Shown: positions 37,309-58,817 of the stretch, piece after piece
Layout of the letters: every line of letters begins with the position of its first letter
How positions within the stretch are numbered: position 1 is the first letter of the stretch
Virus record (IMG/VR): IMGVR_UViG_3300023184_009676
Coordinates: 33,276-97,275 of that record
DNA: 64,000 nt
Strand: one strand, 5' to 3'
DNA from: a virus
Program-made: the position numbers and the translations under genes
The notes under the pieces: generated by a model
Told to the model about the DNA's origin: nothing
The model's database searches: none
Seen by the model: only the letters and a program-made list of their open reading frames with translations

Positions 37309-37340
37309 ATTGTTTTGTTCATCTATAATACCGTTCTATA

Positions 37341-38183
37341 TTAGATGTATTTTAAAATTTTTTCTACTTTCGCCGTCCACTTCATTGTTTCAATGTCTCT
37401 AACGATTGGTTCTGAGTGCTTCATCGCTGCGTTGACGGAAGATATCAAGGATTTCTCTAAGTCAAAGAGGTCGTAAGTGTATATCCCAGCTTTCGGGGAA
37501 TTATAGGCTAAAAGAGTCGGCCTTTCCATACTTACCATAGGCGTCTCACAAGCATATCCCTCGAAGAACCTTTGACCGAGCATATCCTCTTCCATCGGTG
37601 AGATGTCTAAGAAGCACCTTGACTGCGCGGCAGCAGTCCTTATACCGTCGAAATACGTATGTGGGGAATGTAGGTTGAAATTTTCTTCGACAATCTTTAG
37701 GATTTCTCTCCTAATGCCTTGCGTTTTTCTACCACCGACAAAGCATACGTCATATTTTTTATCGAGGTTTTCTTTGTAAAAAATTTCTTCATCACATCCC
37801 ATAGCAATGAAAATGACCTTTTTGTCCATTTTTCTCCACCAGTGATACCCGTATTCAAACGCATCAAATACGATGGATACATGATTGGCGACATCCATCC
37901 ACCATCCTAGACGGGTATCGAACCCTTGCTTAAATAACTCAAGCCCGTTTTGGTAACAGTCGATTGAATAGATTGCTGTTTTTTCTTTTGGAGTATTGAT
38001 TTGGTAGCAATGCGCCGAATCGACGAACAAATATTTATCAGCCACTACGGACGCCGCATCGTGAGGATGAGCGAATACGACTTTAAGCCCAAGTTTTCTA
38101 AATGCCTTTAGGATTAGATGCCCCGTGGTCCATGGACAATCTGGAATAAATGATACACAGAAAGTTCTGTTATCTTGAATCAT
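37341..38183 (-). CDS. CgeB-like glycosyltransferase
   Basis: 280 residues. N-terminal Rossmann (FCVSFIPDCPWTTGHLILKAFRKLGL). The second half has DVCFVGGRKTQGIRREIL and LDISPMEEDMLGQRFFEGYACETPMVSMERP, a pattern of GT-B transferases of the CgeB type (acidic E-x-x-x-G-Q-R-FFE-Y/A-C motif). The stop shares one base with the start of the radical SAM gene to its right on the map. The base composition is richer in GC than neighbouring genes (a sampled 60-base line of this region gives about 43 percent, against 25-30 percent nearby), a sign of recent transfer. Acceptor unknown. Confidence 0.65.
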   Translation of the reverse strand: MIQDNRTFCVSFIPDCPWTTGHLILKAFRKLGLKVVFAHPHDAASVVADKYLFVDSAHCYQINTPKEKTAIYSIDCYQNGLELFKQGFDTRLGWWMDVANHVSIVFDAFEYGYHWWRKMDKKVIFIAMGCDEEIFYKENLDKKYDVCFVGGRKTQGIRREILKIVEENFNLHSPHTYFDGIRTAAAQSRCFLDISPMEEDMLGQRFFEGYACETPMVSMERPTLLAYNSPKAGIYTYDLFDLEKSLISSVNAAMKHSEPIVRDIETMKWTAKVEKILKYI

Positions 38184-39331
38184 CAGATGAACTCCTTATG
38201 GTCGATGTTCTGCGGAGTCCTTGCCTCGACTTCTCGTAAGAACTGCTCCTTGTCTTCTGCCTTATGATAATCCGAGTATAGCTCCCAGAGAATCTTGTTG
38301 CTTTCGTGGGGCTTACATAGTTGAGTGCAAAAGGCAAACTTCTCTTTTTCTTCAATCAATTTCATCACTTCAAGCTTCAGACCTACATCGTTCCAGATGT
38401 CAATGAATGATTTTTCGTAAATGGAGCCGTAGCTATATTGTTTATGTCCACGATGATTCGTGCAGACGTAAACTAGCCCATCTGCTCCGATACATGGAGA
38501 GACTTGTGAGCCAAGGCACTTTTCGTATTTGCGCCCATATTTCTTTGGATCATCAATTAGGTCATCCAGCTTATATGTATTAGCTTGATACTTGCTGCCG
38601 AGAATAATGCTCGCTTCCTGAAGAATGTCTTTGGCGACTTTCCAAAAATCAGTATTCCTTTGAATACCAGACTCCCTTTCGATATTAACAATTTCTGGTT
38701 TGAACTGGCAATAAGTAATATCCATATCTTTGAAGAGATTGGCGAATGGGATTACTTCATTTACGTTTTCTGGGGTAACCACAAATCCAACTCCGACATT
38801 AATTCGATTGCCATGCGCTTTATTCGCAGCAATCATCTTTTGGATATTGGACATTACCTTATCCCAATCACACGATGACCTAGTGTGGCGAATTCGATTG
38901 TATGTGTCTGGAAGGCCAGCGTCTATAGAAAATCTCATCCAAGAGAAGTATTGCGCGATTACATCGAAAAGGTCGAACTTATCCAACAGGCTTCCGTTCG
39001 TGAACATGCCCATCTTTATAGAACCTTCTTCTCCGATTTTTATGATAGCCTTCTTTAAGTGCGGATTTACAGTTGGCTCCCCGCCCCCCGTCCAATTAAT
39101 AGCCTTCGCTTTAATTTTGATGAGTTCATCACATAATTTCAACAAGGCGGCTTCTGATAGAATTTGTTTCCCCGCGTGAACGTGTGAAGCTAGACAAAAA
39201 TTACAAGCATGATTGCATACGTTACTTGGGTCAATCTCCACCAGAATCGGCGGAGAGATATTCGCCTTTAACAACTGTTTAACGTAGTCGAAATTGGCTA
39301 GGATTTTATCCTGTGGCGAAAAGATATTCAT
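38183..39331 (-). CDS. Radical SAM enzyme with SPASM-like C-terminal cluster
   Basis: The start is taken at 39331 (MNIFSPQDKILANFDYV); a TTG-initiated frame to 39355 is possible. A GGAG site precedes this ATG by about 10 bases. PSNVCNHACNFC contains the CxxxCxxC that holds the radical SAM 4Fe-4S cluster. Next come TGGGEPTVNPHL (the GGE motif), MGMFTNGSLL and WMRFSIDAG. The C-terminal half has CLGSQVSPCIGADGLVYVC and CTQLCKPHESN, the SPASM-type cysteines that bind extra clusters. Such enzymes modify peptides or small molecules by radical chemistry. It overlaps the CgeB-like gene by one base and the upstream 48-residue gene by one base (TAATG). GC content is raised, as in its partner. Confidence 0.82.
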   Translation of the reverse strand: MNIFSPQDKILANFDYVKQLLKANISPPILVEIDPSNVCNHACNFCLASHVHAGKQILSEAALLKLCDELIKIKAKAINWTGGGEPTVNPHLKKAIIKIGEEGSIKMGMFTNGSLLDKFDLFDVIAQYFSWMRFSIDAGLPDTYNRIRHTRSSCDWDKVMSNIQKMIAANKAHGNRINVGVGFVVTPENVNEVIPFANLFKDMDITYCQFKPEIVNIERESGIQRNTDFWKVAKDILQEASIILGSKYQANTYKLDDLIDDPKKYGRKYEKCLGSQVSPCIGADGLVYVCTNHRGHKQYSYGSIYEKSFIDIWNDVGLKLEVMKLIEEKEKFAFCTQLCKPHESNKILWELYSDYHKAEDKEQFLREVEARTPQNIDHKEFI

Positions 39332-39477
39332 TAGTTTTTTTCTCCAAAAATACAAAAGGAGTTATTTATGTCAACTTGGGAATTAAAGATTTTTTGGTAT
39401 CCGGCTCTATCACGTAATCCTTTATGATGAACGGGGAAAAGATATTGCTGTATAGACTTTGTAATTTTCTTACTCAT
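39331..39477 (-). CDS. 48-residue unknown protein coupled to the radical SAM gene
   Basis: A frame of 48 codons plus stop. It begins at an ATG that overlaps the previous stop (ATGA, 39474-39477) and its TAA overlaps the next ATG (TAATG, 39329-39333). Both junctions are typical of coupled translation, which is the main reason to call it real. The product starts SKKITKSIQQYLFPVHHKG and ends in NNSFCIFGEKN. It has the size of a substrate peptide for radical SAM/SPASM enzymes, though no leader or core motif is recognisable. Other explanations are a short linker peptide or a regulatory ORF. Confidence 0.5.
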   Translation of the reverse strand: MSKKITKSIQQYLFPVHHKGLRDRAGYQKIFNSQVDINNSFCIFGEKN

Positions 39478-40287: not shown

Positions 40288-41118
40288 TTATGCGTGTTTT
40301 AAAAAACAATTTTCGTATAGCCATTTATCGGGCGAAGCGAATTTTTCAAATTTATCAAAATTTTCTTCAATTACTTGCTTTTTGTTATTATAGTCTTCTA
40401 CGCTAATTTTTGCCAGTATTTGTTTCAGGTCTTCTATTGTTTCCCAAGTATAAAATCCATCTTTATTAAAATGATTTGACATATTTGGGTCTCCCCAATA
40501 AATAGGAATACATCCCGAAGCAAAACAATCAATAATTTTATCTGTAAAATAATTGGGAAATCTACAGTTTTCCGCAACTATCATATACATATAGTCTTTA
40601 AATGGCGCCACTCTTCCATCTGGCTCATCGCTAAACCATTTGTAACCACTTCCCCAAAGTTCAAGTTCGGGGTGCAAATTCATGGATATCAATTTGTGGC
40701 GAAGCTGATGTCCTGGAGCATAATTTTTATTTGATGCAACAATTGATAATAATTTGCTCTTGGGATAGATTTTGCAATTTTGCTTTGGTATCCAACAAGC
40801 GCCACCGCAATAAGCTTGTTTATATTTTGGATTATTTGGGATTGGAGTGTAAGTATAAATATAATCAAATTTATGTTCTATTTGATGAATATGATTGATT
40901 ACATACGGTTTTATTATTGGGCTTTCTGCTGCTAGTGCAATTTTGTATTTTGATTTAACTTTGTCTACAATTGGGTCAAAACACATTTCATCTGTAAATA
41001 AAGATATGCCGTCAAATTCCATTAGCGGGGGCTTGATATATTCTACCAAAGGCTCTGGCCAATGCATATTAATATAAGGTCCATCTCCAGTATTCTTGTC
41101 AAAAAAATTAATTTTCAT
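40288..41118 (-). CDS. GT10-like (fucosyltransferase-type) glycosyltransferase
   Basis: 276 residues. The phrase CRFPNYFTDKIIDCFASGCIPIYWGDPN (split: NYFTDKIIDCFASG, then CIPIYWGDPN) is the classic alpha-1,3-fucosyltransferase motif Y-x-T-E-K-x-x-D-x-x-x-x-G-x-x-P-V-Y-x-G. The N-terminal half shows the family's short Rossmann (IALAAESPIIKPYVINHIHQ). The donor would be GDP-fucose or another GDP-deoxysugar. The gmd gene in this cluster supplies a GDP-6-deoxysugar intermediate, so the pairing is sensible. No transmembrane anchor is present. Confidence 0.75.
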   Translation of the reverse strand: MKINFFDKNTGDGPYINMHWPEPLVEYIKPPLMEFDGISLFTDEMCFDPIVDKVKSKYKIALAAESPIIKPYVINHIHQIEHKFDYIYTYTPIPNNPKYKQAYCGGACWIPKQNCKIYPKSKLLSIVASNKNYAPGHQLRHKLISMNLHPELELWGSGYKWFSDEPDGRVAPFKDYMYMIVAENCRFPNYFTDKIIDCFASGCIPIYWGDPNMSNHFNKDGFYTWETIEDLKQILAKISVEDYNNKKQVIEENFDKFEKFASPDKWLYENCFLKHA

Positions 41119-41813
41119 ATATTTTTTTTGTGTTCGTCTATCTTTTTCTCCAATTCTGTTTCTGTATAGTCTTGAAAATGCTGAAAACCTCGTGGGGACA
41201 TTTGGCGACCCAGATAATTAATTATTGCTTCTGGATTATTTGAAATATCATGGATATGAGAATATACGCATTCGTTTGCTTTGGCCGTTATATATCCTTT
41301 TGTTGCGGCTCTGTATGCAAGCTCTCTTTCGCAGCCAAGTGGGGAAGCAATTTCATCATAAACATAATCTCCGCAATCTTTTATCATTTTAGATTTTAAA
41401 CCCAAAACAAATCCCTGCGGTATTGATATTATGTCGTTTGGTTTTCCTCCCATTCCTACGCATGAAATTCCTATATTATCTGGTATAAGTGTCTCAACTA
41501 AAGACTTATATGTCGCTGGATGAACTGCGCAATCGTCACTCAACATTATTAAATATTTTGACCAAGAAATTTTGTATGCTAGATTTATAGCTTTTGCAAA
41601 TCCCATATTTTGACTGGAAAAAATAAATCTTGTTATTCTTGGCTCATTTTTTGCATATTCTAATATTTTCCAACTTTCTTCTGAGTAAAAATTTATAATT
41701 AAAATAAATTCATCGGGTGGGAATCCGCTATATGCTTCCTCGACTCTTTTTTTGATATTATCTAAAGATTTATAGCCTATCGTTAGTATTGCATAATTAT
41801 TTTTATTATCCAT
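41115..41813 (-). CDS. GT2-like glycosyltransferase
   Basis: The start is placed at 41813 because AAGGA lies 5 bases before it; an upstream ATG at 41831 is possible. About 232 residues. The N-terminal Rossmann is ILTIGYKSLDNIKKR and the donor site LIMLSDDCAVHP (DxD-like DDC). GGKPNDIISIPQGFVLGLKSKMI covers the acceptor region. It overlaps the upstream GT8-like gene by 8 bases and the next gene by 4. It transfers one sugar in an oligosaccharide chain; donor and acceptor unknown. Confidence 0.7.
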   Translation of the reverse strand: MDNKNNYAILTIGYKSLDNIKKRVEEAYSGFPPDEFILIINFYSEESWKILEYAKNEPRITRFIFSSQNMGFAKAINLAYKISWSKYLIMLSDDCAVHPATYKSLVETLIPDNIGISCVGMGGKPNDIISIPQGFVLGLKSKMIKDCGDYVYDEIASPLGCERELAYRAATKGYITAKANECVYSHIHDISNNPEAIINYLGRQMSPRGFQHFQDYTETELEKKIDEHKKNI

Positions 41814-42498
41814 AGAGTTCCTTATAGTCATTTTCTATTGTTTGGAATTTATTTCCATTTCCATACTTGCATGGACCGGCATAATGAATAAAATCGGAGT
41901 TATATCTATTATTCTGTTCGTCAAATTCTCCCAAATCCATTCTGTTGAAGCTATGAGATAAAGATTTAAATGGAATTTTGTTCTTGGCTACAGCAAAATT
42001 TAAAGCAGTTTGCTCTCCTCCGTCAATGCTAAAGCATTTTTGTGTAAATTGAATTTTTGAAATCAAAGAAAATAGATTAACATGAGGCTTTGAATATAAA
42101 ACGCACCCAGAATTAAAATACATTTTTCTGTTATCTATCAACGGCCATTCAAAATCTGGACTATAAGTATCAATCCAGGAGTCCCTTTTCATATGTTCTG
42201 CATTGCTGTTTTCATTGAATGCGTATAAATAATTTTCGTCTGGATACTCTTCAAATATATTTTTTGCAGAAGGGGTGACTAATACGTCTGCATCTAAACA
42301 TAATACTCTATCATATTCTTCCAAGAGTTCCAAACATTGAAGTTTTTCAAAATAGTGATTTATAAAATTATATTTTTGCCCATTGCACAAAAAGAAAGAC
42401 AATTGATATTTTTCTGCGTATTTTGCTATGGAATTTAAACAAAATTTATATCTGGAAGGATCTCCAAGAGCCAAGCTGAATATTGCTAATTTTTTCAT
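41806..42498 (-). CDS. GT8-like glycosyltransferase
   Basis: 230 residues. It starts with KLAIFSLALGDPSRYKFCLNSI, a GT-A strand and helix. VLCLDADVLVTPSAKNIFEEY is the DxD metal site. YFNSGCVLYSKPHVNLF fits the family's NxG pattern (N-S-G). SIDGGEQTALNFAVAKNKI and FIHYAGPCKYGNGNKF (His-x-x-G) match GT8 C-terminal ligands. It overlaps the preceding GT9-like gene by 53 bases, an unusually long overlap for a gene pair but with intact proteins on both sides. Likely transfers glucose, galactose or N-acetylglucosamine. Confidence 0.72.
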   Translation of the reverse strand: MKKLAIFSLALGDPSRYKFCLNSIAKYAEKYQLSFFLCNGQKYNFINHYFEKLQCLELLEEYDRVLCLDADVLVTPSAKNIFEEYPDENYLYAFNENSNAEHMKRDSWIDTYSPDFEWPLIDNRKMYFNSGCVLYSKPHVNLFSLISKIQFTQKCFSIDGGEQTALNFAVAKNKIPFKSLSHSFNRMDLGEFDEQNNRYNSDFIHYAGPCKYGNGNKFQTIENDYKELYG

Positions 42499-43486
42499 TA
42501 TTTATAACTTCTTTTATTATATATTCTGCGAGTAATTTCGGAGATAAATTCTCGCATTCTCTTTTGCATGATTGAGATAAATTTTCTCCACCAAAAGCTT
42601 CTAAAAAATATGATGGACATTTCTTTCTGCATTCTAAATGCAAATGACTTGGGAAAAATGAATTCCCAAGTTTAAAAAATTCTACTTTATTAATTAAACA
42701 CGCTTGAAACAAAACAATGGGCTTATTTCTTATATTAAATGCATGATGTACTCCGCCATCACTCATTATTCCATAATCCATATAATCTACATTCCTTATT
42801 AAATTAAAAATGTCTCCTGTGTCTGGGCAATGCTCGTCTCCAATTCCAAAATTTTCTTGAGAAAATTCAAATATTTTTATTCTAGGATTGGAATACTTTA
42901 ATGTTTTTACTAGCTCTTTCCATGATTCTAGCCCTTTCATACCATTAAATCTGAACCCTTTTCCATCGCAATAGGGGTGAGGCGTTGTTTTGCCTGAAAG
43001 TTTTGTGGTGGGAACAATTCCTACGTTAATAAAATTAGTATTATTTTCGTATTTTGGCACATTTATTTCTGATAAAAAGCTTTGTTTTTTATCAAAAAGT
43101 AAGTTTTCTAGCCCTAATTGAAGTAGGTAATTCAATGTGATTATATTTGCTGTTGGATGGTTTTCTAAAAGTTCTGCATTATCTTTCCAGAACGCAAACG
43201 TCTTTGGGTGCCAATCTGGATAAATTACCTTTATATTTTCTATTTTCTCATCTGAAAGGGCGTATTGATGATAATTAACGTATATTTCTTGCTGATTCGG
43301 TTCTCTAACCAAGTCTACGTTTTTATCCAATTTAAATATATCTATAAGAAATCCATAAGTGATTACTTCTAGGGTGCAATCTGGATATATTGATTTTAAA
43401 ATCTTGGGAACAAAAGTAAAAATTAAACTATCCCCAAGGTTTTTTGGGAATATCCATCTTGGAAAATATAATCGAATATTTTTCAT
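42446..43486 (-). CDS. GT9/heptosyltransferase-like glycosyltransferase
   Basis: 346 residues. N-terminal GDSLIFTFVPKILKSIYPDCTLEVITYG matches the glycosyltransferase-9 start (G-D-x-L-x-x-x-P-x-L-x-x-L-K-x-x-x-P-x-A-x-I). The C-terminal half has MDYGIMSDGGVHHAFNIRNKPIVLFQ, like the donor loop (SDGGxxH). Cysteines near the end (ECRKKCPSYF, SCKRECENL) may bind a metal. It is a complete, unsplit version of the fold, in contrast with the split one at 13165-16289. Heptose or another ADP-sugar donor is likely. Confidence 0.65.
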   Translation of the reverse strand: MKNIRLYFPRWIFPKNLGDSLIFTFVPKILKSIYPDCTLEVITYGFLIDIFKLDKNVDLVREPNQQEIYVNYHQYALSDEKIENIKVIYPDWHPKTFAFWKDNAELLENHPTANIITLNYLLQLGLENLLFDKKQSFLSEINVPKYENNTNFINVGIVPTTKLSGKTTPHPYCDGKGFRFNGMKGLESWKELVKTLKYSNPRIKIFEFSQENFGIGDEHCPDTGDIFNLIRNVDYMDYGIMSDGGVHHAFNIRNKPIVLFQACLINKVEFFKLGNSFFPSHLHLECRKKCPSYFLEAFGGENLSQSCKRECENLSPKLLAEYIIKEVINNEKISNIQLGSWRSFQI

Positions 43487-43489
43487 CTT

Positions 43490-44308
43490 TTATTTTATTA
43501 ACTCCTTTAGTCCATTTTTTATGTCTATTTTTTGGATAAAGCCTAATTCTTTTATCTTTTTGCAATCTAAGACCATGTCTTTCGCCTGTACTATTTTATG
43601 GAAGCTTGATGCCTCTAAAGGAGTAATTTTACTGGTGGAACCAGTTTCTTGTATTATAAAATCAATCATTTCTCTAAAGTTTTGTGGAATTCCGCTCCCT
43701 ATATTTATTATCTGATTGTGGTCTGAATTATTAATACATAAATTGATTGCATTACATACATCAGAGACATGCATATAATCTCTTACAAATTGTCCATCAT
43801 TATATAATTCTATATCTTCTTTATTTTTTATTTTTTTGACAAGATACTGTAACGCATTTTTTTGTTTAGATATTCCTTTGTCATTCTTACCGTAAACATT
43901 ACATAGTCGAAGTATTCTATATTTTATATTAAACGTTGCGCAGTAGCTTATAATTAAATCTTCTGCGCATTTTTTTGTTATACTATAAAAACCTTTTGGA
44001 TTACAGCAAAAATCTTCCTTCGCTGGTAAATCAACATTTCCATAAACAAACCAGCTGCTTATAAAATTAAAAGTAATATCTTTGTCTTTGCAGTGACTTA
44101 ATACTTTTAATAATTTAATTAAATTTGTATTTACATCTTTGTAGATATCATCAAATACATGATAATTATGAGTGGTGCTAATCATGTATAGCACATCTTT
44201 AAATAAGGGAATATCGCCTGCCCTGTTGTGTATATGGGTAGATTCAGGGTACAGATTATAATAATTGCTACCTATAAATCCTGTGCCGCCAAATAAGTCA
44301 ACTTTCAT
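43490..44308 (-). CDS. NAD-dependent epimerase/dehydratase (SDR)
   Basis: 272 residues. GGTGFIGSNYYNLY gives the G-x-x-G-x-x-G start. MISTTHNYHVFDD is the NAD loop. SSWFVYGNVDLPAKED has the serine, and GFYSITKKCAED has the catalytic Tyr-x3-Lys. VRDYMHVSDVCNAI is the substrate-binding Arg-Asp-Tyr phrase (R-D-x-x-x-V-x-D). It overlaps the start of the RfbH-type gene by 11 bases. As a neighbour of a 3-dehydrase, it may carry out the final reduction or epimerisation of a dideoxysugar. Confidence 0.75.
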   Translation of the reverse strand: MKVDLFGGTGFIGSNYYNLYPESTHIHNRAGDIPLFKDVLYMISTTHNYHVFDDIYKDVNTNLIKLLKVLSHCKDKDITFNFISSWFVYGNVDLPAKEDFCCNPKGFYSITKKCAEDLIISYCATFNIKYRILRLCNVYGKNDKGISKQKNALQYLVKKIKNKEDIELYNDGQFVRDYMHVSDVCNAINLCINNSDHNQIINIGSGIPQNFREMIDFIIQETGSTSKITPLEASSFHKIVQAKDMVLDCKKIKELGFIQKIDIKNGLKELIK

Positions 44309-45599
44309 ATTTCGACAAAACTTCTTGAATATATTCTATATTTTCTTTTGATATTGTTGGGGAGCATCCGACAAAGAATACTAAATCCAGAACTTTATTC
44401 GATTCTGGATATTTTTGATAATCATCAAGGTGTTTATAGCCTTTATGCATTAGGAGATTGCCTGCAAAATAATTACGGGTCTGTATTCCATTTTTCTCCA
44501 AATAATTAACTAGATTGAGCTTTTGAGTCTTATTGTTGCAAATGATAGGTACTCCAAATGGAACCCAATCTGTATCACTCAAGCATTTTGGAAATCTTAT
44601 GTCTTTTACGTTATCTTTGAACACTTTCCATATTTCTAATAAATTATCTGCTCTTTTTTCACAAATAAATTCAAGTTTTTTTAATTGTTCAATTCCTATT
44701 GCTCCTTGCAAGTCTAAAGGTTTTAGATTGTATCCAATTCTATTGAATACATATTTATGGTCAATTATTGTGTCTGGAAAGTCACTTAGCCAGTTTGAAA
44801 ATCTTTTTCCACAAGAGCCATTGGCCAAAAGATTACATGTTCCTACGCACCAGCAATCTCTTCCCCAAGTTCCATAGCTTCTAGCTAATTGAACAAGTTC
44901 TTCCATATTAGAAGATACCATGCCTCCTTCAAGGGTAGTAATTTCGTGAGCTGGGTAAAAAGAACATGATGAAGCTACGGCATACTCATTTAAATATCTA
45001 CCTTTCCATTTTGAACCCAAAGAATCGCAGTTATCTAGCAAAAGACTAATATCTCTTGATTCACAGATATTTAATAAAACATCCATGTCGGGTGGATTAC
45101 CCAATACTGGGCTAAGAAATATTGCTTTTGTATTATCCGTAATCTTGTCTTTTATCTTGCTAAGGTCAAAATTTAATGTATCCCATTCAATATCTACAAA
45201 TACTGGCTTTAATCCATTTTGGACGATAGAAGATACTGTCGTTGGGAAGCCCACAGCGGAAACGATGATTTCGTCTCCGTCTTGCCATTTAAAATACTCC
45301 TTGCAAGCAGCAATTAAGAGTAGGTTTGCTGAACTTCCGCTATTAGTAAAAAAAGAAAATTTTTGATTTATTTTGTTGCTAAATTCCTTTTCAAATTGAG
45401 CGCAAGTTTCTCCGGAGCTTGACCATTTTCCAAATAATAGGGTTTCGATTGCTGCCGCCATTTCATTTTCATCAAAATAAGCTCCAGAATAATATACTTT
45501 ATTTTTTGGGGCATTTAGATTATGGCAAAACTTTGGAAGATTTCCATGCTCTTCTTGGAGTTTTAATATAAAATTTTTTATAATTTCTCTTTTGCTCAT
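44298..45599 (-). CDS. RfbH-type 3-dehydrase (DegT fold, PMP/Fe-S)
   Basis: 433 residues, usual for RfbH/DdhC. It belongs to the DegT/DnrJ/EryC1 fold, but the lysine that binds PLP is replaced by histidine in SFYPAHEITTLEGGMV. That change marks 3-dehydrases of the E1/ColD type rather than aminotransferases. The phrase RDCWCVGTCNLLANGSCGKRF (split: RDCWCVGTCNLL, then ANGSCGKRF) matches the E1 [2Fe-2S] ligand group of CDP-4-keto-6-deoxyglucose-3-dehydrase. It would remove the C3 hydroxyl of a 4-keto-6-deoxy sugar nucleotide. No rfbF/rfbG or reductase partner was recognised in the window. Confidence 0.82.
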   Translation of the reverse strand: MSKREIIKNFILKLQEEHGNLPKFCHNLNAPKNKVYYSGAYFDENEMAAAIETLLFGKWSSSGETCAQFEKEFSNKINQKFSFFTNSGSSANLLLIAACKEYFKWQDGDEIIVSAVGFPTTVSSIVQNGLKPVFVDIEWDTLNFDLSKIKDKITDNTKAIFLSPVLGNPPDMDVLLNICESRDISLLLDNCDSLGSKWKGRYLNEYAVASSCSFYPAHEITTLEGGMVSSNMEELVQLARSYGTWGRDCWCVGTCNLLANGSCGKRFSNWLSDFPDTIIDHKYVFNRIGYNLKPLDLQGAIGIEQLKKLEFICEKRADNLLEIWKVFKDNVKDIRFPKCLSDTDWVPFGVPIICNNKTQKLNLVNYLEKNGIQTRNYFAGNLLMHKGYKHLDDYQKYPESNKVLDLVFFVGCSPTISKENIEYIQEVLSKYES

Positions 45600-45602
45600 A
45601 GT

Positions 45603-46340
45603 CTATTGTGATTTTTGTTTGTCGAATCCAATTCTATCATGATTGGTAAGAAACTTTAAATATATTTTTTCTGCACCTTTGTTTATTTTTTCTGAATATT
45701 CTGGGCTTCTGTTTTCGTAGTCATAAGTATAATTGACTAAAAGCTTTGGAATATTATAAAATTCATAATGTTTCACCGCTCTGCTAAATAAATCATAATC
45801 TTCGCTGACGCAAGAATCGTCGTATCCTCCACATTTGGTTAATATTCTTTTATTAAAAATTAAAGATGGATGAGCCATTGGATTATTACCTATATGGTAA
45901 CTATGAAGAATTTGTTCGTGTGTTTCTGGATAAAAAACTTCTCTAATGCCATCTTTCGTATAGAAAAACATACCTGTTCCACAAACATCAATTTTATTTT
46001 CAATTACAAATGGGAATTGAATCTCTATCTTGTTTGGCAGCCATTCATCATCACAATCAAGAATAGAAAAATAATCGCAGTGATTAATTTTCATTGCCGC
46101 AAAAAGGCTGGTATTTCTTCCTGCAACCAATCCTTTTTCTGGACTTGTTGCGTAAATTATGTTTTCATATTTTGATATTACTTCCAAAAGATTATCTGTT
46201 GAAGCAAGGTCATTAACCACGACTATCTTGTAATTGAATATTCCTTTTTTAAAAACGGTTTGATTAACTACGGAATCGAGGGCTTTTTTTATTATTTTTG
46301 ATCCGTTTTTCACCGTCATTAATATTGCGATTGTTTCCAT
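45603..46340 (-). CDS. GT2 glycosyltransferase
   Basis: 245 residues. IAILMTVKNGSKIIKKALDSVVNQT is a typical GT2 N-terminus. IVVVNDLASTDNLLEVI gives the first Asp. FSILDCDDEWLPNKIEIQ has the DxD (DCDDEW). GGYDDSCVSEDYDLFSRAVKH carries the catalytic ED motif. It uses a UDP- or dTDP-sugar to add a hexose. It sits 3 bases from the RfbH gene. Confidence 0.78.
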   Translation of the reverse strand: METIAILMTVKNGSKIIKKALDSVVNQTVFKKGIFNYKIVVVNDLASTDNLLEVISKYENIIYATSPEKGLVAGRNTSLFAAMKINHCDYFSILDCDDEWLPNKIEIQFPFVIENKIDVCGTGMFFYTKDGIREVFYPETHEQILHSYHIGNNPMAHPSLIFNKRILTKCGGYDDSCVSEDYDLFSRAVKHYEFYNIPKLLVNYTYDYENRSPEYSEKINKGAEKIYLKFLTNHDRIGFDKQKSQ

Positions 46341-46350
46341 ATTTTTGCCA

Positions 46351-46896
46351 TTATTGTACTTTGACTATCCAAGAAGAGTCTCCAAATTGCTGATTTATTC
46401 CCCCCAGAGTATCTTTAATGGCGTTTTGAACAGTTTGCCAACCAATATCGTGTCCACCAATAAAGCCGCTTTTCTTTATTTTTGGAAGCCAATTATTAAT
46501 ATCGTCTTTTAAATCTTGATAAGCGTGAGAGCCATCTAAATATACAAAGTCTAAACTATTTTCTTCAAACTTTTCGGACGCTTCTTTACTTGTCATTTTC
46601 ATTTTGATGATTTTTGAAGAATCTTTTATGTTTTCATCAAAGAGGCTCTCCACTTCATTCATATTTCCTTTTTGAGAAGCTCCATCGTTTGGGTCGTAAA
46701 AATCTTTCCAGGGGTCAACAGCAAAAATTTTAATTATTTTATCGCTAGACTCCCACATTAACGTGGATTCACCATAATAACAACCCACTTCAACCATGGT
46801 AGATTCTGGATTTAATAAAGAGATAATGTCTTCAATACCAAGTGATCCCTCTGGTCTCATTCCTGTGTTTGGTAAAGTTTTACATATTTTTTTCAT
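46351..46896 (-). CDS. Class I SAM-dependent methyltransferase (Methyltransf_24 type)
   Basis: 181 residues. Motif I MVEVGCYYGESTLMWESS binds SAM, FAVDPW follows as the acidic loop, and DFVYLDGSHAYQDLKDDINNWLPKI is the family's LDGxHxY segment. FIGGHDIGWQTVQNAI ends it. Such enzymes often O-methylate sugars or rhamnose-type residues. It lies between glycosyltransferase genes, so it probably modifies the glycan made by this cluster. Confidence 0.72.
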   Translation of the reverse strand: MKKICKTLPNTGMRPEGSLGIEDIISLLNPESTMVEVGCYYGESTLMWESSDKIIKIFAVDPWKDFYDPNDGASQKGNMNEVESLFDENIKDSSKIIKMKMTSKEASEKFEENSLDFVYLDGSHAYQDLKDDINNWLPKIKKSGFIGGHDIGWQTVQNAIKDTLGGINQQFGDSSWIVKVQ

Positions 46897-46899
46897 ATT

Positions 46900-47742
46900 T
46901 TATTCGGTTATTGTATTCCAAAAGTCAAAAGATGAGCTATTGCATTTATTTATAAAGTCATTCATTCCCAGTCTTTTCATTTCGTGGATACATCCTATTT
47001 TATCATTAATCATCATTTCCATTCCTGATAAAGCTGCCTCTCCTGCGGCTCTACAAAAAGGTTCATCTATTCTAGGGAAATATATAAAAGTTTTATATTT
47101 ATTATATAGTTCGGGCATCTTTTCGTGAGATACTTTTCCAAGGAATTCTATATTTGGAATGCTTGTGGCTAAATGTTCAAAAATCTTTTCTCCCCATCCA
47201 GCGACGACAAATTGTATTTGCGGATTATCTATAGCGTATCTAAAAAAGTCAAAAGTGCCTTTGAATTCGTGCATGAATCCGACGTAAAGGACTTTATCTT
47301 CCCTATTATTCTTATTATCAAAAAAGATAGATGAATCTATTGGGTCTGGAACTATTCTAACATTAATAAAATAATCTCCGTAATGATTTTTAAATAAATT
47401 ATAATGATATTCAGTTAGGAAGAATGCATTTTTACAGCTTGTGTAAAGCTGATGTCTTTTAGACTGAGAAAGATATCTATTCATATCATGCTCGATTCTT
47501 GAATGAGCTTTTGCAGAAGATAAATAATCAATTATAAATGGATATTTCTGGTTTAAAAATTCAAGATTTGCAGAAATCACATGGTCGTAAGAGTTTTTAA
47601 GCGATTCTGGGTCTGAATCACAAGTAAAATGAGTTATATTTAAACCCATCTGCCTTCCCTTTTTAATAATAATCTCATCGCTTCTTTGAGCGCCTCCAGG
47701 ACTATGCAAAATTGAAAAATCAGAAATCCAAAGAATGTTCAT
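46900..47742 (-). CDS. GT4 glycosyltransferase
   Basis: 280 residues. NILWISDFSILHSPGGAQRSDE is the Gly-rich N-terminal loop typical of GT4. VRIVPDPIDSSIFFDN and KVLYVGFMHEFKGTFDFF make the donor half, with VVAGWGEKIF. FPRIDEPFCRAAGEAALSGMEMMIND carries the E-x7-E motif (E...E) that binds the donor. The size is a little short for the family but both halves are seen. A single sugar is transferred to a growing glycan. Confidence 0.75.
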   Translation of the reverse strand: MNILWISDFSILHSPGGAQRSDEIIIKKGRQMGLNITHFTCDSDPESLKNSYDHVISANLEFLNQKYPFIIDYLSSAKAHSRIEHDMNRYLSQSKRHQLYTSCKNAFFLTEYHYNLFKNHYGDYFINVRIVPDPIDSSIFFDNKNNREDKVLYVGFMHEFKGTFDFFRYAIDNPQIQFVVAGWGEKIFEHLATSIPNIEFLGKVSHEKMPELYNKYKTFIYFPRIDEPFCRAAGEAALSGMEMMINDKIGCIHEMKRLGMNDFINKCNSSSFDFWNTITE

Positions 47743-51175: not shown

Positions 51176-51805
51176 TTAAATCAAATCACAAATATTATCA
51201 GAGTGCTTCATTTTATTTTTAATTAAAATTAATCCCTTTTTGTGAAGGCACATCACCGTTTGTGGAGATGCTTTGATTTTTCTTGCTATTTTATTCCAAA
51301 TCATTTTCTTTCCTGCAAAATATCTATATTCAAATATGTCTTTAATCCTTGGGTCTTTCATTTGCCCCAATATATCAAATATGTAATCCTTACTCTCTTC
51401 CAAAGAGTTTTGGGATTCAAAATAGTTGTTGAATATTTGCTGCTCTTCTATCTTTCTCTGTACATCTTCATCACATGATGGCATTATAAATCTTCTTGAA
51501 TTTATTGAATTAAGGCAAAGATATCTTGCGTAATTGCCAATCCAAGAAGAGAGTTTTGTTTTCTTTTTAGGGTTAAAAGTCTTTACGCAGTGAAAGATAA
51601 TCATGTCCTTTTCATTAAAAATATCTTGTAGATTAAATCCACAATTACTTATTGAAGAAGAATATTTTTGACACATCTTATAAAATACATTCTCGTATCT
51701 CCTGCAAATCTCTAAAAAGCATTCGCTGCAAGCTTTATTTTTTACCTGCCTAATCAAATAAAGGTCAGATTTGTTTTCTAATGAATTGTTCAACAGTTTT
51801 GACAT
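51176..51805 (-). CDS. Sigma-70-like RNA polymerase sigma factor
   Basis: 209 residues. Region 2-like: FLEICRRYENVFYKMCQKY, then NEKDMIIFHCVKTFNPKKKTKLSSWIGNYARYLCLNSI (split: FHCVKTFNPKKKTKLS, SWIGNYARYLCLNSI) contains the F-x-x-x-K-G-x-x-x-T-x-x-x-x-x-Y-x-R-like core. Region 4-like: IKDIFEYRYFAGKKMIWNKIARKIKASPQTVMCLHKKGLILIKNKM, a helix-turn-helix (split). It would redirect host RNA polymerase to phage promoters. A long overlap of 41 bases with the dNMP kinase gene precedes it. It lies with the other small regulatory genes. Confidence 0.65.
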   Translation of the reverse strand: MSKLLNNSLENKSDLYLIRQVKNKACSECFLEICRRYENVFYKMCQKYSSSISNCGFNLQDIFNEKDMIIFHCVKTFNPKKKTKLSSWIGNYARYLCLNSINSRRFIMPSCDEDVQRKIEEQQIFNNYFESQNSLEESKDYIFDILGQMKDPRIKDIFEYRYFAGKKMIWNKIARKIKASPQTVMCLHKKGLILIKNKMKHSDNICDLI

Positions 51806-52352
51806 ATTTATTTAATCCTGAGTTTTTTAAAGAGAAGTTCGGCTGCTTCTTCCATTCTATAAGAAGGTCAGAGTTTTCCTTCAAGAATGGGTCGTTTTTC
51901 TTTTCGTCGTTATTTGCTGGTGCAACAGTCTTTCCATTATCAATCATTGATATATGAATCAATTTTCCGCCAAGAGTATTTCTTACCCAAAAAACTTCAT
52001 CTTTTTCATATTCGCAATATCTGATATCAGTTATTACTGCAATATTCTCGTTTGATTCCCTAACATAGTCTTGTATATGACTGGTTACAAGATTTGTCCA
52101 ATGAGTTCCATCGGACTGCTTTCTTCTAATCTTTCCATGCTCCACAAGGATGGGTCTAACTAAATCTTTTTCTTCTCTTGAGCAATTAAATATATCTATA
52201 TTATATAATTCTTTAATAAATGAAAATAGCTCCGTCTTTAGGGCGTCAGCTAGTGCGAAACGCTTAATATTTGGGTTATTGAAGTTTAAGAGAGAAAACA
52301 TGGTGTCTTTACCAGACCCAGCAACGCCGCATAATCCAATAATTTGATTCAT
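51765..52352 (-). CDS. Deoxynucleoside monophosphate kinase, T4 gp1-like
   Basis: 195 residues. P-loop GLCGVAGSGKDTMFSLL (G-x-x-G-S-G-K-D-T). FALADALKTELFSFI is the ADPLK-like phrase seen in phage dNMP kinases. ITDIRYCEYEKDEV (D-x-R) and HISMIDNGK follow. It phosphorylates dNMPs from host DNA breakdown and feeds the reductase-derived dNTP pool. The AG/T-rich 5' region contains three hairpins (52412-52479). Confidence 0.72.
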   Translation of the reverse strand: MNQIIGLCGVAGSGKDTMFSLLNFNNPNIKRFALADALKTELFSFIKELYNIDIFNCSREEKDLVRPILVEHGKIRRKQSDGTHWTNLVTSHIQDYVRESNENIAVITDIRYCEYEKDEVFWVRNTLGGKLIHISMIDNGKTVAPANNDEKKNDPFLKENSDLLIEWKKQPNFSLKNSGLNKYVKTVEQFIRKQI

Positions 52353-52411
52353 ATCTAATACTTAGACTATCAAACGCCTAAAATTGTTCAAGCTTTATAA
52401 AACGTGAGTAG

Positions 52412-52479
52412 AATTGCTTCGCAATTAAATCCTGCGGATTTATGGGAGGTAGGAAATTATATTCGTTAATATTGACGAA
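52412..52479. ncRNA. Three tandem hairpins (leader or small RNA region)
   Basis: Hairpin 1 52412-52426 (AATTGC, loop of 3, GCAATT) abuts hairpin 2 at 52427-52441 (AAATCC, loop of 3, GGATTT). Hairpin 3 at 52462-52479 is a near-palindrome (TTCGTTAATATTGACGAA, one mismatch). They lie between the terminator of the ncRNA and the kinase start. Role unknown. Confidence 0.45.
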
Positions 52480-52514
52480 CGCGTAAGCCTGTTATGATTT
52501 CTTTAAGCAAAAAT

Positions 52515-52945
52515 AGAAAAAATACCCCCAATATAATAATATTTTTATTATTACTTGGGAGTATCCTGAAATAATTTCTTCGAAGGGCATTATTATTTAA
52601 TGGTCCTAGCCAACGGACAGAAATCCAGAAGTGATTTTCACACTAGACAGCTACCATATAGGTGATGAGAGAGATTCTAAAACTCATTTACGCTGCCAAT
52701 ACCTCGTTTCCGAAATGTCGGGCAAACTCCACAATTTACTTGCAGACTCTTTTATTTTGCATCTGACTATGCAGCCGTCTTCTTTGTCAATTAGGAATCT
52801 CCTTCGTCCGTAGACTGGCTTAAGATTCCGCGTCAAAACAATTATATTGTTAAGGCCAATGGGTTTAGGCTTCTTGTAGAACGCTAGACTTAGCAAACCT
52901 TATCTGATTTCTCTCAGTAGGCTAAAAGGCGACATCACCTTTAAT
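52515..52945 (-). ncRNA. Candidate large structured non-coding RNA
   Basis: About 430 bases without a convincing coding frame, on the minus strand. A TTGACA-N18-TAGTAT promoter (52952-52981) and a strong terminator hairpin (52522-52564) with a downstream U run frame it. Within it, local stems in the transcribed strand are: CUGA/UCAG; GCUA/UAGC; AACAAU/AUUGUU; GGAAUC/GAUUCC enclosing GUC-UACG-GAC (a UNCG-type tetraloop); UGCAU/AUGCA; CCGA/UCGG. Long-range matches are GGUGAUG (52933-52939) with CAUCACC (52661-52667) and ACGGAC (52806-52811) with GUCCGU (52613-52618), which would cross. A sampled 60-base line has about 42 percent GC, above surrounding non-coding DNA. I do not recognise the family; GOLLD or ROOL-like phage RNAs are comparable in kind, not proven. 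Confidence 0.6.
52522..52564 (-). terminator. Terminator of the ncRNA
   Basis: Stem of ten pairs (ATACTCCCAA with TTGGGGGTAT, one G-U on the transcribed strand) topped by a perfect eight-pair AT stem and an AAAA loop. On the minus strand it is followed by TTTTTTCTATTTTT. The G-U pair appears only in the leftward RNA, which supports this direction. Confidence 0.7.
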
Positions 52946-52951
52946 TTACTT

Positions 52952-52981
52952 ATACTAATCATTTATTTACAAAAATGTCAA
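52952..52981 (-). promoter_or_regulatory. Promoter of the candidate ncRNA
   Basis: Minus-strand TTGACA (52976-52981), 18-base spacer, TAGTAT (52952-52957). It overlaps on the other strand the region ahead of the rightward gene at 53008. Predicted start near 52945. Confidence 0.45.
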
Positions 52982-52990
52982 TATAAAATC

Positions 52991-52996
52991 TATAAT
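52991..52996 (+). promoter_or_regulatory. TATAAT -10-like box upstream of membrane protein gene
   Basis: TATAAT ends 11 bases before the ATG at 53008. It is divergent from the ncRNA promoter. Confidence 0.4.
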
Positions 52997-53007
52997 AAGA
53001 TTGAGTT

Positions 53008-53361
53008 ATGAATAATATTTTATTTATCTTTTGGAATATTTTAATTTTATATATCTTGTTGGAGACTGACGCGATATATAAATGGGCGAAGCTTTTTAAG
53101 TTAAAATGCTTTAAATATCAAGAATTTGAAGAAAAACAGGCAATATTTCAGCGTTACCAATATTTCTTATCAAGCAAATATCCAAACTTTATTGTTTCTC
53201 TAGTTACTTGTCAAGAGTGTTTAGCTATTTGGTTAAATATAATGCAATTTGTATTCTTTTCAAATTTATTAGGGGGATGGATGGCTTTCGGATTAAATTG
53301 TATTGCAACTTTATATGGGGTATCTGTTTTTAAATATCTTTTAAAAAAAACTTATGAGTAA
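53008..53361 (+). CDS. Small membrane protein with TCxxC motif (DUF1360-like?)
   Basis: 117 residues. Hydrophobic segment 4-20 (ILFIFWNILILYILL) and two further ones near residues 70-110 (FIVSLVTCQECLAIWLNIMQFVFF, GGWMAFGLNCIATLYGVSVF). TCQECLAIW resembles the C-x-x-C-L-x-x-W phrase seen in the DUF1360 membrane family, which is a resemblance only. An unidentified phage membrane protein is the safe call. It overlaps the next gene by 8 bases. Confidence 0.5.
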   Translation: MNNILFIFWNILILYILLETDAIYKWAKLFKLKCFKYQEFEEKQAIFQRYQYFLSSKYPNFIVSLVTCQECLAIWLNIMQFVFFSNLLGGWMAFGLNCIATLYGVSVFKYLLKKTYE

Positions 53362-53950: not shown

Positions 53951-56851
53951 ATGGACAAAAACAATTTTAACGGTCTTGAGGAAATGGCTAATTTTACTTT
54001 TACCACAAAATACGCCAAGTACGATGAAAAAAAGAAGCGCAGGGAGACTTGGGACGAAACTGTTTCTCGCGTGGAGAAGATGCATCTAAAGAAATTCAAT
54101 TATCTTTCCGAAAAAGATAAAGAGCAGATTGCGAAAGCCTTCGATTTCGTTCGCGAAAAGAAAATTACGCCATCAATGCGTTCGATGCAGTTTGGTGGTA
54201 AAGCTGTCGAAGCCCACAATGGCAGAATTTTTAATTGCCTATCTAAAGAAACCAAATTCATAACAGAAAAAGGAGTAAAGTCTTTTTTAGATTTCAAAAA
54301 TGGTGACAAAACAACTGTTTTGACGCACAAAGGTAATTGGAAGCGAGCGGTAGTCAGGTATTATGGATTCGATGATTTATATCCAATTACTATTTCGAGA
54401 TGCAAAAATAAACAAATTGTTTTCGCAACAAAAGATCATCGGTGGATTCTAAAAGATGGGTCTTTTACCCCTTCTTTAACCGAAGGTCAAATACTAAGAG
54501 GGGCAGAAGATATTTTCTCTTCGTTTTCTTATGAAGAAGCCTCTCCAATGGAGAAATTATACTGGTGCTATGGATATGTGTTTGGAGACGGCTCAATTGT
54601 TACAAGTGGAAAAAACAAATATTCAATGGTTCGTCTTTGCAAAAAAGATAGTTCCCATCAAAAAAGATTTGAAGAAATGGGATTTTCTACCTCTCAGCCT
54701 CTTTCTTGCGATGGAGATTTCTTTGCCTACACTGGGTCATATTTAAAAACAGCGCCATGCCCAGGACAAGATTCTCCAACTCTAATTAGGGCATTTGTCG
54801 CGGGGTATTGCGATGCCGACGCATCAAAAAACAATAACTCTAATAGAAATTATAGCACGAATAATAAATATAACTCTATTCAAGCTACGGGACAGAACCA
54901 TATAGATTTTATTCGTTCTTGCTTCCCTATTGCGGGTATTTATTTAGTTTCCGAAGAGGATTTGACTGGACAAGAGACAAATTTTGGTATTAGAGGAGAC
55001 GTCACTATAAGATTTAGAATATTTAACGCGCCAAATAATAAAGAAAATAGTAATACACCTTTTATAGTTTCTTCTATTGGAGAACCAAAAAATGACGAAG
55101 TTTGGTGCCTTGAAGTTGAAGACGATGAATCTTTTGTTTTCCCAACTGGATTAGCTACTGGGAATTGCGCTGTGCGTCACATTGATTCTCTTCGCTCTTT
55201 TGCAGAGTCTTTTTATACTTTGCTTTGTGGTACTGGTGTCGGTTTTGGCATCACCAATTTCTTTTTAAACCGTCTTCCAGATTTAGTTAATACAACAGAT
55301 AAGACTGGAACAGTGATAACTTATGTTGTTCAAGATAATATTGAAGGGTGGGGCGATTCAATTGAAGCATTGATGAATTGTTATTTTAAGAATACTCCTT
55401 ATTCTGGCCGAAAGATTGTTTTTGATTATAGTCGTATTCGCGCCAAGGGAACAAAATTGAAAACTGGCGGCGGCAAGGCTCCTGGTTATAAAGGCTTAAA
55501 GAATTGCCACAAGAAAGTCAAGGCAATGCTCGACAAGATTATTGAAGATAATGATCAGAAAAGACTCAAAACAATTGATGCTTATGATATTTTGATGCAT
55601 TGTGCTGATGCAGTTCTTAGCGGTGGTATTCGTCGCTCTGCCTGTAGCGTCATTTTTGAAGCCTCTGACGAGGACATGATGAACGCAAAAACTGGAAAAT
55701 GGTTTGAAGAAAACGCGCAGAGAGCAAGAAGCAATAACTCTGCAATCATTATCCGTGAGAAAACTTCTTATAAGGAATTTTGCAATCTTATTGAAAAAAC
55801 CAAGCAGTTTGGCGAACCAGGATTTTTGTATGTTGTAGATGAGAAGCAGCTTTTAAATCCCTGTTTTGAAATCTCATTTATTCCAATGACTGCTGATGGG
55901 CGTTGTGGTTTTCAATTTTGTAATCTAACATCTGTCAATGGCGCAAAGACTACCACTCTTCAAGAGTTTAAGGATGCAACTTGGGCAGCATCTCTTATTG
56001 GAACATTACAAGCGGGATATACAACCTTCCCATATTTGGGGCATACTTCAGAAGAGTTGACTAGAGAAGAATCTCTCCTCGGCGTATCAATAACGGGAAT
56101 GATGGATAACCCAGAAGTTTTGTTTAACGCTAGGAATCAAAAAGAAGCTGCAAAAATTGCCGTTGAAACGAATAAAGAATGGGCAAAGAAAATCGGCATC
56201 AATCAAGCCGCCCGTGTGACCTGCATTAAGCCAGAGGGGACAAATTCAATTGTACTGTCTGCTGCATCTGGTATTCATCCCCATCACGCCAGAAAGTATT
56301 TTCGCCGCATTCAAGTTAATAAAGAAGACAATGTCTATAATTTCTTTAAGATGTTTAATGACCACGCTTGTGAAGAAAGCGTTTGGAGCGCAAATAAGAC
56401 TGATGATGTTATAACCTTTCCAATCGTCATCTCTGATAAAGCTAAAATCAAGAGCGATTTAAATGCAATTGAGCATTTAAAATTAATTAAATTAACCCAA
56501 GAAAATTGGGTTAATACAGGAACAACAGAGGTAAATAAAAAGCCTCTCAACCATAGTGTTAGCTGCACCGTAATGGTTAAAGATGACGAATGGGAAGAGG
56601 TGACAAAGTTCTTATTTGAAAATCAAAAAGACTTTACCGCCGTTTCTCTTCTCCCATATTCTGGCGACAAGATTTATAAACAAGCTCCTATGGAAGCGGT
56701 AATTACTCCAGAGGATGAAGCCAAGTTTGATGCCTTATTGAAAAATTGGAATAAGGTTGATTATAAAAAGCTCGAAGAAGACGAAGACACAACCAATCAC
56801 GGAGCGGAGGCCGCTTGTGCAGGAGGGGCTTGCGAAGTAACAAAGATATAG
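53951..56851 (+). CDS. nrdJ: Ribonucleotide reductase, class II (B12-dependent) type, with intein
   Basis: 966 residues including an intein of 310 residues. The extein has SMRSMQFGGKAVEAHNGRIFN, then CAVRHIDSLRSFAESFY and LLCGTGVGFG, the pattern of adenosylcobalamin-type reductases. GGIRRSACS (Cys 565) and NPCFEISF (Cys 638) carry the radical-relay cysteines. PEGTNSIVLSAASGIHPHHARKYF is the substrate loop. The C-terminus AEAACAGGACEV holds the redox cysteine pair used by a reductant. It reduces ribonucleotides for phage DNA synthesis. The class is inferred from extein motifs, and no separate small subunit is seen. The promoter has an inverted repeat over its -10. Confidence 0.8.
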   Translation: MDKNNFNGLEEMANFTFTTKYAKYDEKKKRRETWDETVSRVEKMHLKKFNYLSEKDKEQIAKAFDFVREKKITPSMRSMQFGGKAVEAHNGRIFNCLSKETKFITEKGVKSFLDFKNGDKTTVLTHKGNWKRAVVRYYGFDDLYPITISRCKNKQIVFATKDHRWILKDGSFTPSLTEGQILRGAEDIFSSFSYEEASPMEKLYWCYGYVFGDGSIVTSGKNKYSMVRLCKKDSSHQKRFEEMGFSTSQPLSCDGDFFAYTGSYLKTAPCPGQDSPTLIRAFVAGYCDADASKNNNSNRNYSTNNKYNSIQATGQNHIDFIRSCFPIAGIYLVSEEDLTGQETNFGIRGDVTIRFRIFNAPNNKENSNTPFIVSSIGEPKNDEVWCLEVEDDESFVFPTGLATGNCAVRHIDSLRSFAESFYTLLCGTGVGFGITNFFLNRLPDLVNTTDKTGTVITYVVQDNIEGWGDSIEALMNCYFKNTPYSGRKIVFDYSRIRAKGTKLKTGGGKAPGYKGLKNCHKKVKAMLDKIIEDNDQKRLKTIDAYDILMHCADAVLSGGIRRSACSVIFEASDEDMMNAKTGKWFEENAQRARSNNSAIIIREKTSYKEFCNLIEKTKQFGEPGFLYVVDEKQLLNPCFEISFIPMTADGRCGFQFCNLTSVNGAKTTTLQEFKDATWAASLIGTLQAGYTTFPYLGHTSEELTREESLLGVSITGMMDNPEVLFNARNQKEAAKIAVETNKEWAKKIGINQAARVTCIKPEGTNSIVLSAASGIHPHHARKYFRRIQVNKEDNVYNFFKMFNDHACEESVWSANKTDDVITFPIVISDKAKIKSDLNAIEHLKLIKLTQENWVNTGTTEVNKKPLNHSVSCTVMVKDDEWEEVTKFLFENQKDFTAVSLLPYSGDKIYKQAPMEAVITPEDEAKFDALLKNWNKVDYKKLEEDEDTTNHGAEAACAGGACEVTKI
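54236..55165 (+). mobile_element. LAGLIDADG-type intein in ribonucleotide reductase
   Basis: 310 codons. Splice start Cys96 (CLSKETKF), after Asn in IFN. End is ...ATGN, followed by extein Cys (CAVRH), the required +1 nucleophile; so the site is N|C...N|C. The penultimate residue is Gly instead of His, as in some inteins. The endonuclease has GYVFGDGS (about residues 206-213) and AGYCDADA (about 283-290), the two DOD-type LAGLIDADG motifs. Codon and base pattern is a little AT-richer than the extein. It lies next to a conserved region, usual for homing. Confidence 0.85.
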
Positions 56852-56962: not shown

Positions 56963-57337
56963 GGGGACGTACTGGTTTCGATTTGCGAAAAACGACCTTA
57001 ATTGCACACAGAGGATGATGGTTGGCCTCTTAAAATATCTATCAAAAACTCAACTGCTAACGCATTGAAATCGCTCGCTTTTGTGCCTGTCGTGGGCAGA
57101 GAAGTGGCTGCCGTAGCCTAATTGTTGGCTACCCGTTTGTCTCTTGATTCTCGCTATAGAGAACAAACGATATTAGCGAGAAAAAACGCGGGGGCTAATG
57201 TGCGTAATCAGGAGCCGAAAACTCAAAAGGAAAGGAAAGTCAGTTCCAGTCTTTTGTTTTATCAAGTCTGACTAAGTGTGTAGAAATTTTGGGAGTTCGT
57301 TGCAAAGACGCGGGTTCAACTCCCGCCGTCTCCACCA
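56963..57337 (+). ncRNA. ssrA: Phage-encoded tmRNA
   Basis: The 5' end GGGGACG pairs with CGUCUCC before the 3' ACCA (seven pairs, one G-U). The T arm GCGGG-UUCAACU-CCCGC is next to it. The encoded tag reads from about 57056, starts ANALKS and ends EVAAVA before UAA at 57119-57121, a 21-residue tag with resume codon GCU. CCA is encoded. It rescues stalled ribosomes and tags their peptides for proteolysis. It lies directly after the reductase. Phage tmRNAs are known but uncommon. Confidence 0.9.
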
Positions 57338-58301: not shown

Positions 58302-58817
58302 ATGACAAACCAAGAATTTTCAGAAAAGATAGAGTCTTCAATTCAAAAAGGAAAAGCTTTTTTACACACCAAATTTAAACTTTCTTCGCATGACGCAGAA
58401 GACTGCGTTCAAAATTCAGCAATAAAAGCTTACAAAAACCTCTCCTCTTTTAATTCTAAGTCTCAATTTGATACATGGTTTTTGACCATCGTAAAAAACG
58501 AAGCATTAAATTTTCTTTCAAAAAAACATTTGCAATGTGTTGAACTACAAGAAGCTCTAACTGTAAAATCTTCAGAAGATGACTCAAATAAAGACTATAT
58601 CTCATTGGTAGAGCAGGGTTTAAAGCAGTTAAACGAGAGAAATAAGACAATTATTGAGATGAGCGTCAAGCAATGTTATTCGACAAAAGAAATGTCAGAG
58701 ATTTTAAATATCCCAATGTCCTCTGTGAGAACCCGTCTTTTTTACGCAAAAAAGAAATTAAAAAGTATAATAAAGAGCAATGCACACAAATCAAACATAC
58801 AACTCCCTAATCATTGA
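58302..58817 (+). CDS. ECF-like sigma factor
   Basis: 171 residues. Region 2: LSSHDAEDCVQNSAIKAYKNLSSFNSKSQFDTWFLTIVKNEALNFL (split: AEDCVQNSAIKAYKNL, FDTWFLTIVKNEALNFL), typical of ECF-type sigma 2 (D-A-E-D-x-x-Q...F-x-x-W-L-x-x-I-x-x-N). Region 4: LNERNKTIIEMSVKQCYSTKEMSEILNIPMSSVRTRLFYAKKKLK (split), a helix-turn-helix. It could direct host RNA polymerase to phage promoters. It overlaps the next gene by 38 bases. A second sigma-like gene lies at 51176. Confidence 0.75.
   Translation: MTNQEFSEKIESSIQKGKAFLHTKFKLSSHDAEDCVQNSAIKAYKNLSSFNSKSQFDTWFLTIVKNEALNFLSKKHLQCVELQEALTVKSSEDDSNKDYISLVEQGLKQLNERNKTIIEMSVKQCYSTKEMSEILNIPMSSVRTRLFYAKKKLKSIIKSNAHKSNIQLPNH

Follow-up and report, generated by a model that had tools for sequence, protein, structure and literature searches.

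A probable stand-alone structured RNA of an uncultured phage lineage, with a conserved 3' domain and an exchanged 5' domain

A stand-alone, trans-acting structured noncoding RNA is the best explanation for a gene-free gap in the DNA of an uncultured phage lineage, and we give this reading a probability of roughly 0.8. The gap lies in a window of 64 kb, the whole stretch of DNA that was analysed, which belongs to a 97-kb virus record. It measures exactly 655 bases (52353–53007), as the initial annotation had it, the kinase ORF starting at 52352 on the minus strand and the next ORF at 53008. Its flanks are a deoxynucleoside monophosphate kinase gene (51765–52352, minus strand) and a small ORF unassigned to any family (53008–53361, plus strand). 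The RNA gene was placed at 52509–52945 on the minus strand from the promoter and terminator positions, the absence of a shared coding frame and covariation; the predicted transcript is ~430 nt long, with its ends (start ~52945, end ~52509–52515) inferred from the promoter and terminator positions. The proposal of a self-contained structured noncoding RNA, maybe of a new class, was supported by the lack of an Rfam match together with clear covariation.

Relatives were sought by anchoring on the ribonucleotide reductase gene located 1 kb from the RNA, which gave 21 contigs. The RNA was present in four distinct relatives, L005/L009 (G001), L011/L012 (G006), L025 (G011), and L010 (G005), at the equivalent position ahead of the same divergent ORF. 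Sure members are thus five (the window and these four), two of them nearly identical in the 3' domain and all from one source collection. L003 and L004 have the kinase in common with the window and lack the RNA. With the RNA or its neighbours as queries, a single close relative carrying it was recovered. BLAST detected no relatives of the window RNA or of three homologous versions in the phage collection, nor any in the plasmid collection, where the window RNA was the query; weak matches were AT-rich terminator matches and were discarded. Scanning the viral collection for strings from the 3' domain returned the nearest relative only. A looser hairpin motif recovered the known members and two false positives, rejected because they lay inside other sequence and lacked the fold; in bacterial and archaeal genomes it matched 64 loci, none of which (0/64) fitted the covariance model. 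A 12-bit match in Microcystis phage Mel-JY01 was judged to be noise. Besides the known members and locus L019, described below, no convincing copy was detected in any other fetched virus record.

The same five phages carry a tmRNA gene (56963–57337 in the window, plus strand) near the reductase; none was detected at the cut-off in the other contigs searched. Since the five phages form one lineage, this co-occurrence is not independent evidence of a link to the RNA and may reflect shared descent only. The predicted tag of the tmRNA is unusually long, with 21 residues (ANALKSLAFVPVVGREVAAVA), and no phage SmpB to match it was found in the contigs examined. Beside the reductase of other phage contigs (L008 and L015), ARAGORN predicted a tRNA-Pyl with a CUA anticodon (10160–10234, plus strand).

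The RNA gene is preceded by a sigma-70-type promoter, TTGACA-N18-TAGTAT (52952–52981, minus strand), with the boxes at 52981–52976 and 52957–52952 and an 18-nt spacer. By itself, a promoter scan found 7 elements vs. 6.7 by chance. The minus-strand promoter was nevertheless confirmed by its retention in the homologues: TTGAC was invariant in all five at the same spacing of 18, the boxes reading TTGACA/TATAAT in L025 and TTGACT/TATTAT in L010, with a weaker −10 box (TAAGTT) in L012. The sigma-70-like type of the promoter suggests that host RNA polymerase could read the gene. At the other end stands a predicted intrinsic terminator, UACUCCCAA..UUGGGGGUA with a U tract (52509–52563, minus strand), the hairpin spanning 52563–52523. 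Equivalent hairpins of different sequence were present in all homologues. The strand-specific pair noted in this terminator was verified, U-G in the minus-strand RNA being A-C on the other strand. A terminator scan passed over the window hairpin owing to the stem and loop limits of the scan.

To evaluate structure, a covariance model was built on a 172-nt core from four versions, with L010 held out. The model found L010 at 73.2 bits (E 2.8e-17), and the same alignment stripped of base pairs gave 36.6 bits; therefore, half of the signal is structure. Among the 34 core pairs counted in five members, 97.0% of cells were standard pairs and 16 pairs changed on both sides vs. 6.2 in shuffles (0/500 shuffles as high), counts that lean towards the model, as it already contained 28 of these pairs when the alignment was fitted to it. 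Sliding the partners by 1–3 columns lowered pairing to 34–48%. Less biased are the held-out score and the helix found by RNAalifold, which recovered the by-eye helices from the five-member alignment and added an overlooked one, GGCAGC/GCUGUC, of a three-way junction. The covariation that the initial annotation had called for was therefore found in the homologues. By our own count, the 34-pair table contained 12 G-U cells and no A-C cells, a result that places the fold in the minus-strand RNA. Comparison of the five versions thus establishes, at the level of sequence, the core structure and its strand, the retention of promoter and terminator, and the domain exchange described below.

All helices lie on the minus strand. 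Directly after the predicted start, the P0 hairpin AAAGG/CCUUU (52925–52942) has a stem in all homologues. Strands of P0 swapped between homologues mostly still pair (11/12), so that P0 is supported by position more than by covariation. The P1 hairpin AGCC-ua-[CUGA..UCAG]-auaa-GGUU (52896–52923) was supported by RNAalifold on the other four versions and by strand swaps, the inner stem keeping 20/20 pairs in native combinations vs. 37/80 with strands swapped between homologues. The S0 hairpin UGCAU/AUGCA (52758–52773) had 3/5 pairs changed on both sides and 100% kept. It is followed by a conserved A-rich AAAAUAAAAGAG and the S1 hairpin UCUGCAA/UUGUGGA (52728–52746), identified by pair counts, whose stem reads CUGCAA/UUGUGG, CCAUGA/UCAUGG, or CUACGA/UCGUAG among homologues. 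The RNAalifold helix, P9 (52646–52697), closes the three-way junction holding S2 and S3; 4/6 of its pairs changed on both sides with 100% kept, and it reads GGUAGC/GCUAUC, GGCGGC/GUCGUC, and AAUAAC/GUUAUU in relatives. Inside the junction, the S2 hairpin AUGAG/CUCAU (52665–52687), preceded by a conserved CGUAA, was supported by pair counts and is AUGGG/CCUAU in L010; the S3 hairpin ACC/GGU (52653–52663) was 93% kept with little variation. Further downstream are S4, AGUG/CACU (52630–52644; 4/4 pairs changed on both sides, 100% kept), S5, GUCC/GGAC with UUGGCU in its loop (52603–52618; 2/4 pairs changed on both sides), and S6, AAAUAAU/AUUAUUU (52569–52598), which has different stems in the window, L005, L012, and L025 and is unclear in L010.

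The energy-minimum fold and two structural details of the initial annotation count for nothing in this case. The energy-minimum fold has a long closing helix that the relatives do not share, and this helix was rejected. The UNCG tetraloop exists (GUC-UACG-GAC, 52815–52806); however, it lies in a 5' domain that the closest relative lacks, and is therefore not a defining feature. Crossing long-range pairs were not confirmed. AGCC (52923–52920) is a candidate for pairing with GGCU in the S5 loop, but it also pairs locally with GGUU, and such a crossing pair is not family-wide since L019 has no S5.

Folding energy supported a structured RNA weakly, with z of −4.3 for the window with the terminator hairpin and −1.95 without it, and from −3.0 to +1.2 without it in relatives; comparative evidence lifts the RNA above chance. 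It is therefore highly improbable that the gap is random or degenerate intergenic sequence, or that it hides a short protein-coding gene: once the terminator is left out, the energy hardly beats that of shuffled sequence, but the covariation contradicts chance or decay. AUGAG in S2 opens a short frame, yet stops occur in every frame of all members and the frames after AUGAG are wholly different among members, so a short peptide there was rejected as well.

A phage contig of 209 kb (L019/G010) contains a probable distant homologue in a noncoding region. The five-member model matched it weakly (14.3 bits, E 0.008), in a search where noise reaches 12.6 bits and E-values are rough. Just upstream, outside the model, are a P0 AAAGG/CCUUU and then a P1 UUUAAGCC-[GCUAA..UUAGC]-AAGGUUU, a motif combination of which ~7 occur per million shuffled bases, and a hairpin resembling a terminator closes the region. 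When the L010 RNA was compared with this locus by BLAST, its best match was this same region, collinear over 238 nt (E 0.13). L019 keeps P0, P1, S0, S1, S2, and a terminator, while S5 is absent.

No known RNA family was recognised. At the gathering thresholds of Rfam 15 the gap had no match, and the only match in the window was the separate tmRNA. Permissive filters (E≤10) gave five chance matches in the window, all far below gathering scores. The RNA was unmatched by the Rfam models of RNase P RNA, group I/II introns, HEARO, 6S, and tmRNA, and by the covariance models of GOLLD, ROOL, and OLE at gathering score or at E≤10. The initial statement that no family is recognised was upheld by this Infernal/Rfam-type check even at E≤10. 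The reading that these models missed a diverged member of a large family already described (GOLLD, ROOL, OLE, RNase P, group I/II intron, or HEARO) draws on the size, the phage location, and the conserved 3' and variable 5' parts, which resemble GOLLD (PMC12286853); it is very unlikely, as the permissive search at E≤10 gave no match to any of these families in four of the five distinct versions, and L012 had nothing at gathering scores.

The likeness to GOLLD and ROOL stated in the initial annotation holds in style and not as family membership. GOLLD, found in phages and prophages, is a large RNA with no established function; its 3' region is conserved and its 5' region less so, it is often located beside tRNAs, and it forms RNA cages (PMC12286853). 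The RNA described here likewise combines a conserved 3' with a variable 5' part (98% vs. 45% identity between the window and L005), a resemblance rather than membership, and has a translation RNA nearby, the tmRNA 4 kb away in place of tRNAs. In contrast to GOLLD, which is often >800 nt, it is ~430 nt long and has no Rfam match. ROOL is a large structured phage and prophage RNA found near tRNA islands with no protein partner known (PMC12286853); our RNA shares with it being a large structured phage RNA, and differs in having no Rfam match or established conserved kissing loop. OLE, a bacterial RNA of ~600 nt mostly from Gram-positive extremophiles and anaerobes (PMC12054373), is similarly a large, elaborately structured noncoding RNA with a function yet to be settled; here, however, there was no Rfam match, and no OLE partner protein was identified. 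Compared with descriptions in the open-access literature, the ~430-nt RNA is, judged by its sequence, a new phage RNA family.

Alignment of the window with G001 over 60 kb, at ~88–89% identity, revealed only four breaks of >40 bases: 37310–39461, 46346–46892, 54239–55162, and 52767–52943. The third is extra sequence inserted into the reductase and interpreted as an intein; the G001 reductase, which is 98% identical, lacks it. The last is the 5' domain of the RNA (minus strand), a block replaced relative to G001, with 45% identity, no better than shuffled; the 3' domain of the window and L005 (G001) was 97–98% identical and the promoter 96%. With 97% identity vs. a window mean of 89%, the 3' domain ranks in the top 8% of 250-base stretches in the window (195/2360 as high), and its conservation above most of the window also speaks against a chance or decayed stretch; many of the higher stretches lie in the recently exchanged 41–47 kb region. 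That region (~41000–47000) is a sugar/glycosyltransferase-like cluster up to 99–100% identical to G001 vs. a backbone of ~88%, and its identity marks it as a recent exchange.

Comparison of these genomes thus divides the RNA into a 3' domain that is conserved and a 5' domain that can be exchanged. Each domain is 80% alike between L005 and L012, which makes it likelier that the new 5' domain was acquired in the lineage of the window. Helices of the 5' domain were picked by eye, RNAalifold recovering only P1 and S0 there, and those of the junction after P1 are less certain. Beyond P0/P1, the fold of the window 5' domain is unsupported since that part has no homologue.

A long cis-acting leader of the following operon, that is, a riboswitch or attenuator with the hairpin as a regulated terminator, is an unlikely reading. 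The RNA does precede the kinase, sigma-like, and sugar genes in the same orientation and has a terminator at its end, and a sigma-like gene is located further downstream in all five members. However, the gene that comes first beyond the terminator is not the same in every phage: the window and L005 have the kinase there, L010 an IMP dehydrogenase-like gene, L012 a sigma-like gene, and L025 an endonuclease-like gene, so that no constant regulated gene stands directly downstream; in the probable member L019, the RNA is on the strand opposite to the kinase. For these reasons, action in trans is more probable than a leader role. Nor was a conserved antiterminator found: the window and L005 could form ACUCC/GGAGU but L012 could not, and this pairing was rejected. 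A possible separate promoter, TTGAA-N20-TCTAA, is located just before the kinase. Elements TTGAA-N19/20-TCTAA occur shortly before genes at 52391 (minus), 57348 (plus), and 16881 (minus), with 5 in the window vs. 1.35 in shuffles, and may be the promoter used by the sigma factor that the phage itself encodes (58302–58817).

As a trans-acting RNA, the ~430-nt molecule would be transcribed from its sigma-70-type promoter to the intrinsic terminator. The 3' domain (S0, S1, the P9 three-way junction, S4, S5, and S6) would serve as a conserved scaffold and the 5' domain (P0, P1, and the variable multi-helix part) as an exchangeable module. The scaffold would bind a constant partner, either itself, as in GOLLD/ROOL assemblies, or host gene-expression machinery, e.g., the ribosome, and the swapped 5' domain would meet a partner that varies between hosts or rival elements. 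Judging from the domain exchange, this is the most likely mechanism, and GOLLD is, by analogy, the nearest model for how the RNA could work. Possible pairing of the RNA with other phage genes was limited to matches of 12–13 nt, mostly AT-rich. More speculatively, and less likely than not, the RNA may represent a new class whose conserved scaffold carries a swappable 5' recognition module, exchanged as a cassette between close phages like tail-fibre or defence genes, and hence a specificity-bearing counter-defence or host-takeover device, or an RNA assembly with a replaced cap.

With clear boundaries and ~430 nt, the RNA is small enough for easy study, and two closely related phages differing in one complete RNA domain constitute a natural experiment. 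Large structured RNAs with no assigned function are uncommon; those known from phages, GOLLD and ROOL, assemble into RNA cages, and every further family broadens the recognised roles of RNA in infection.
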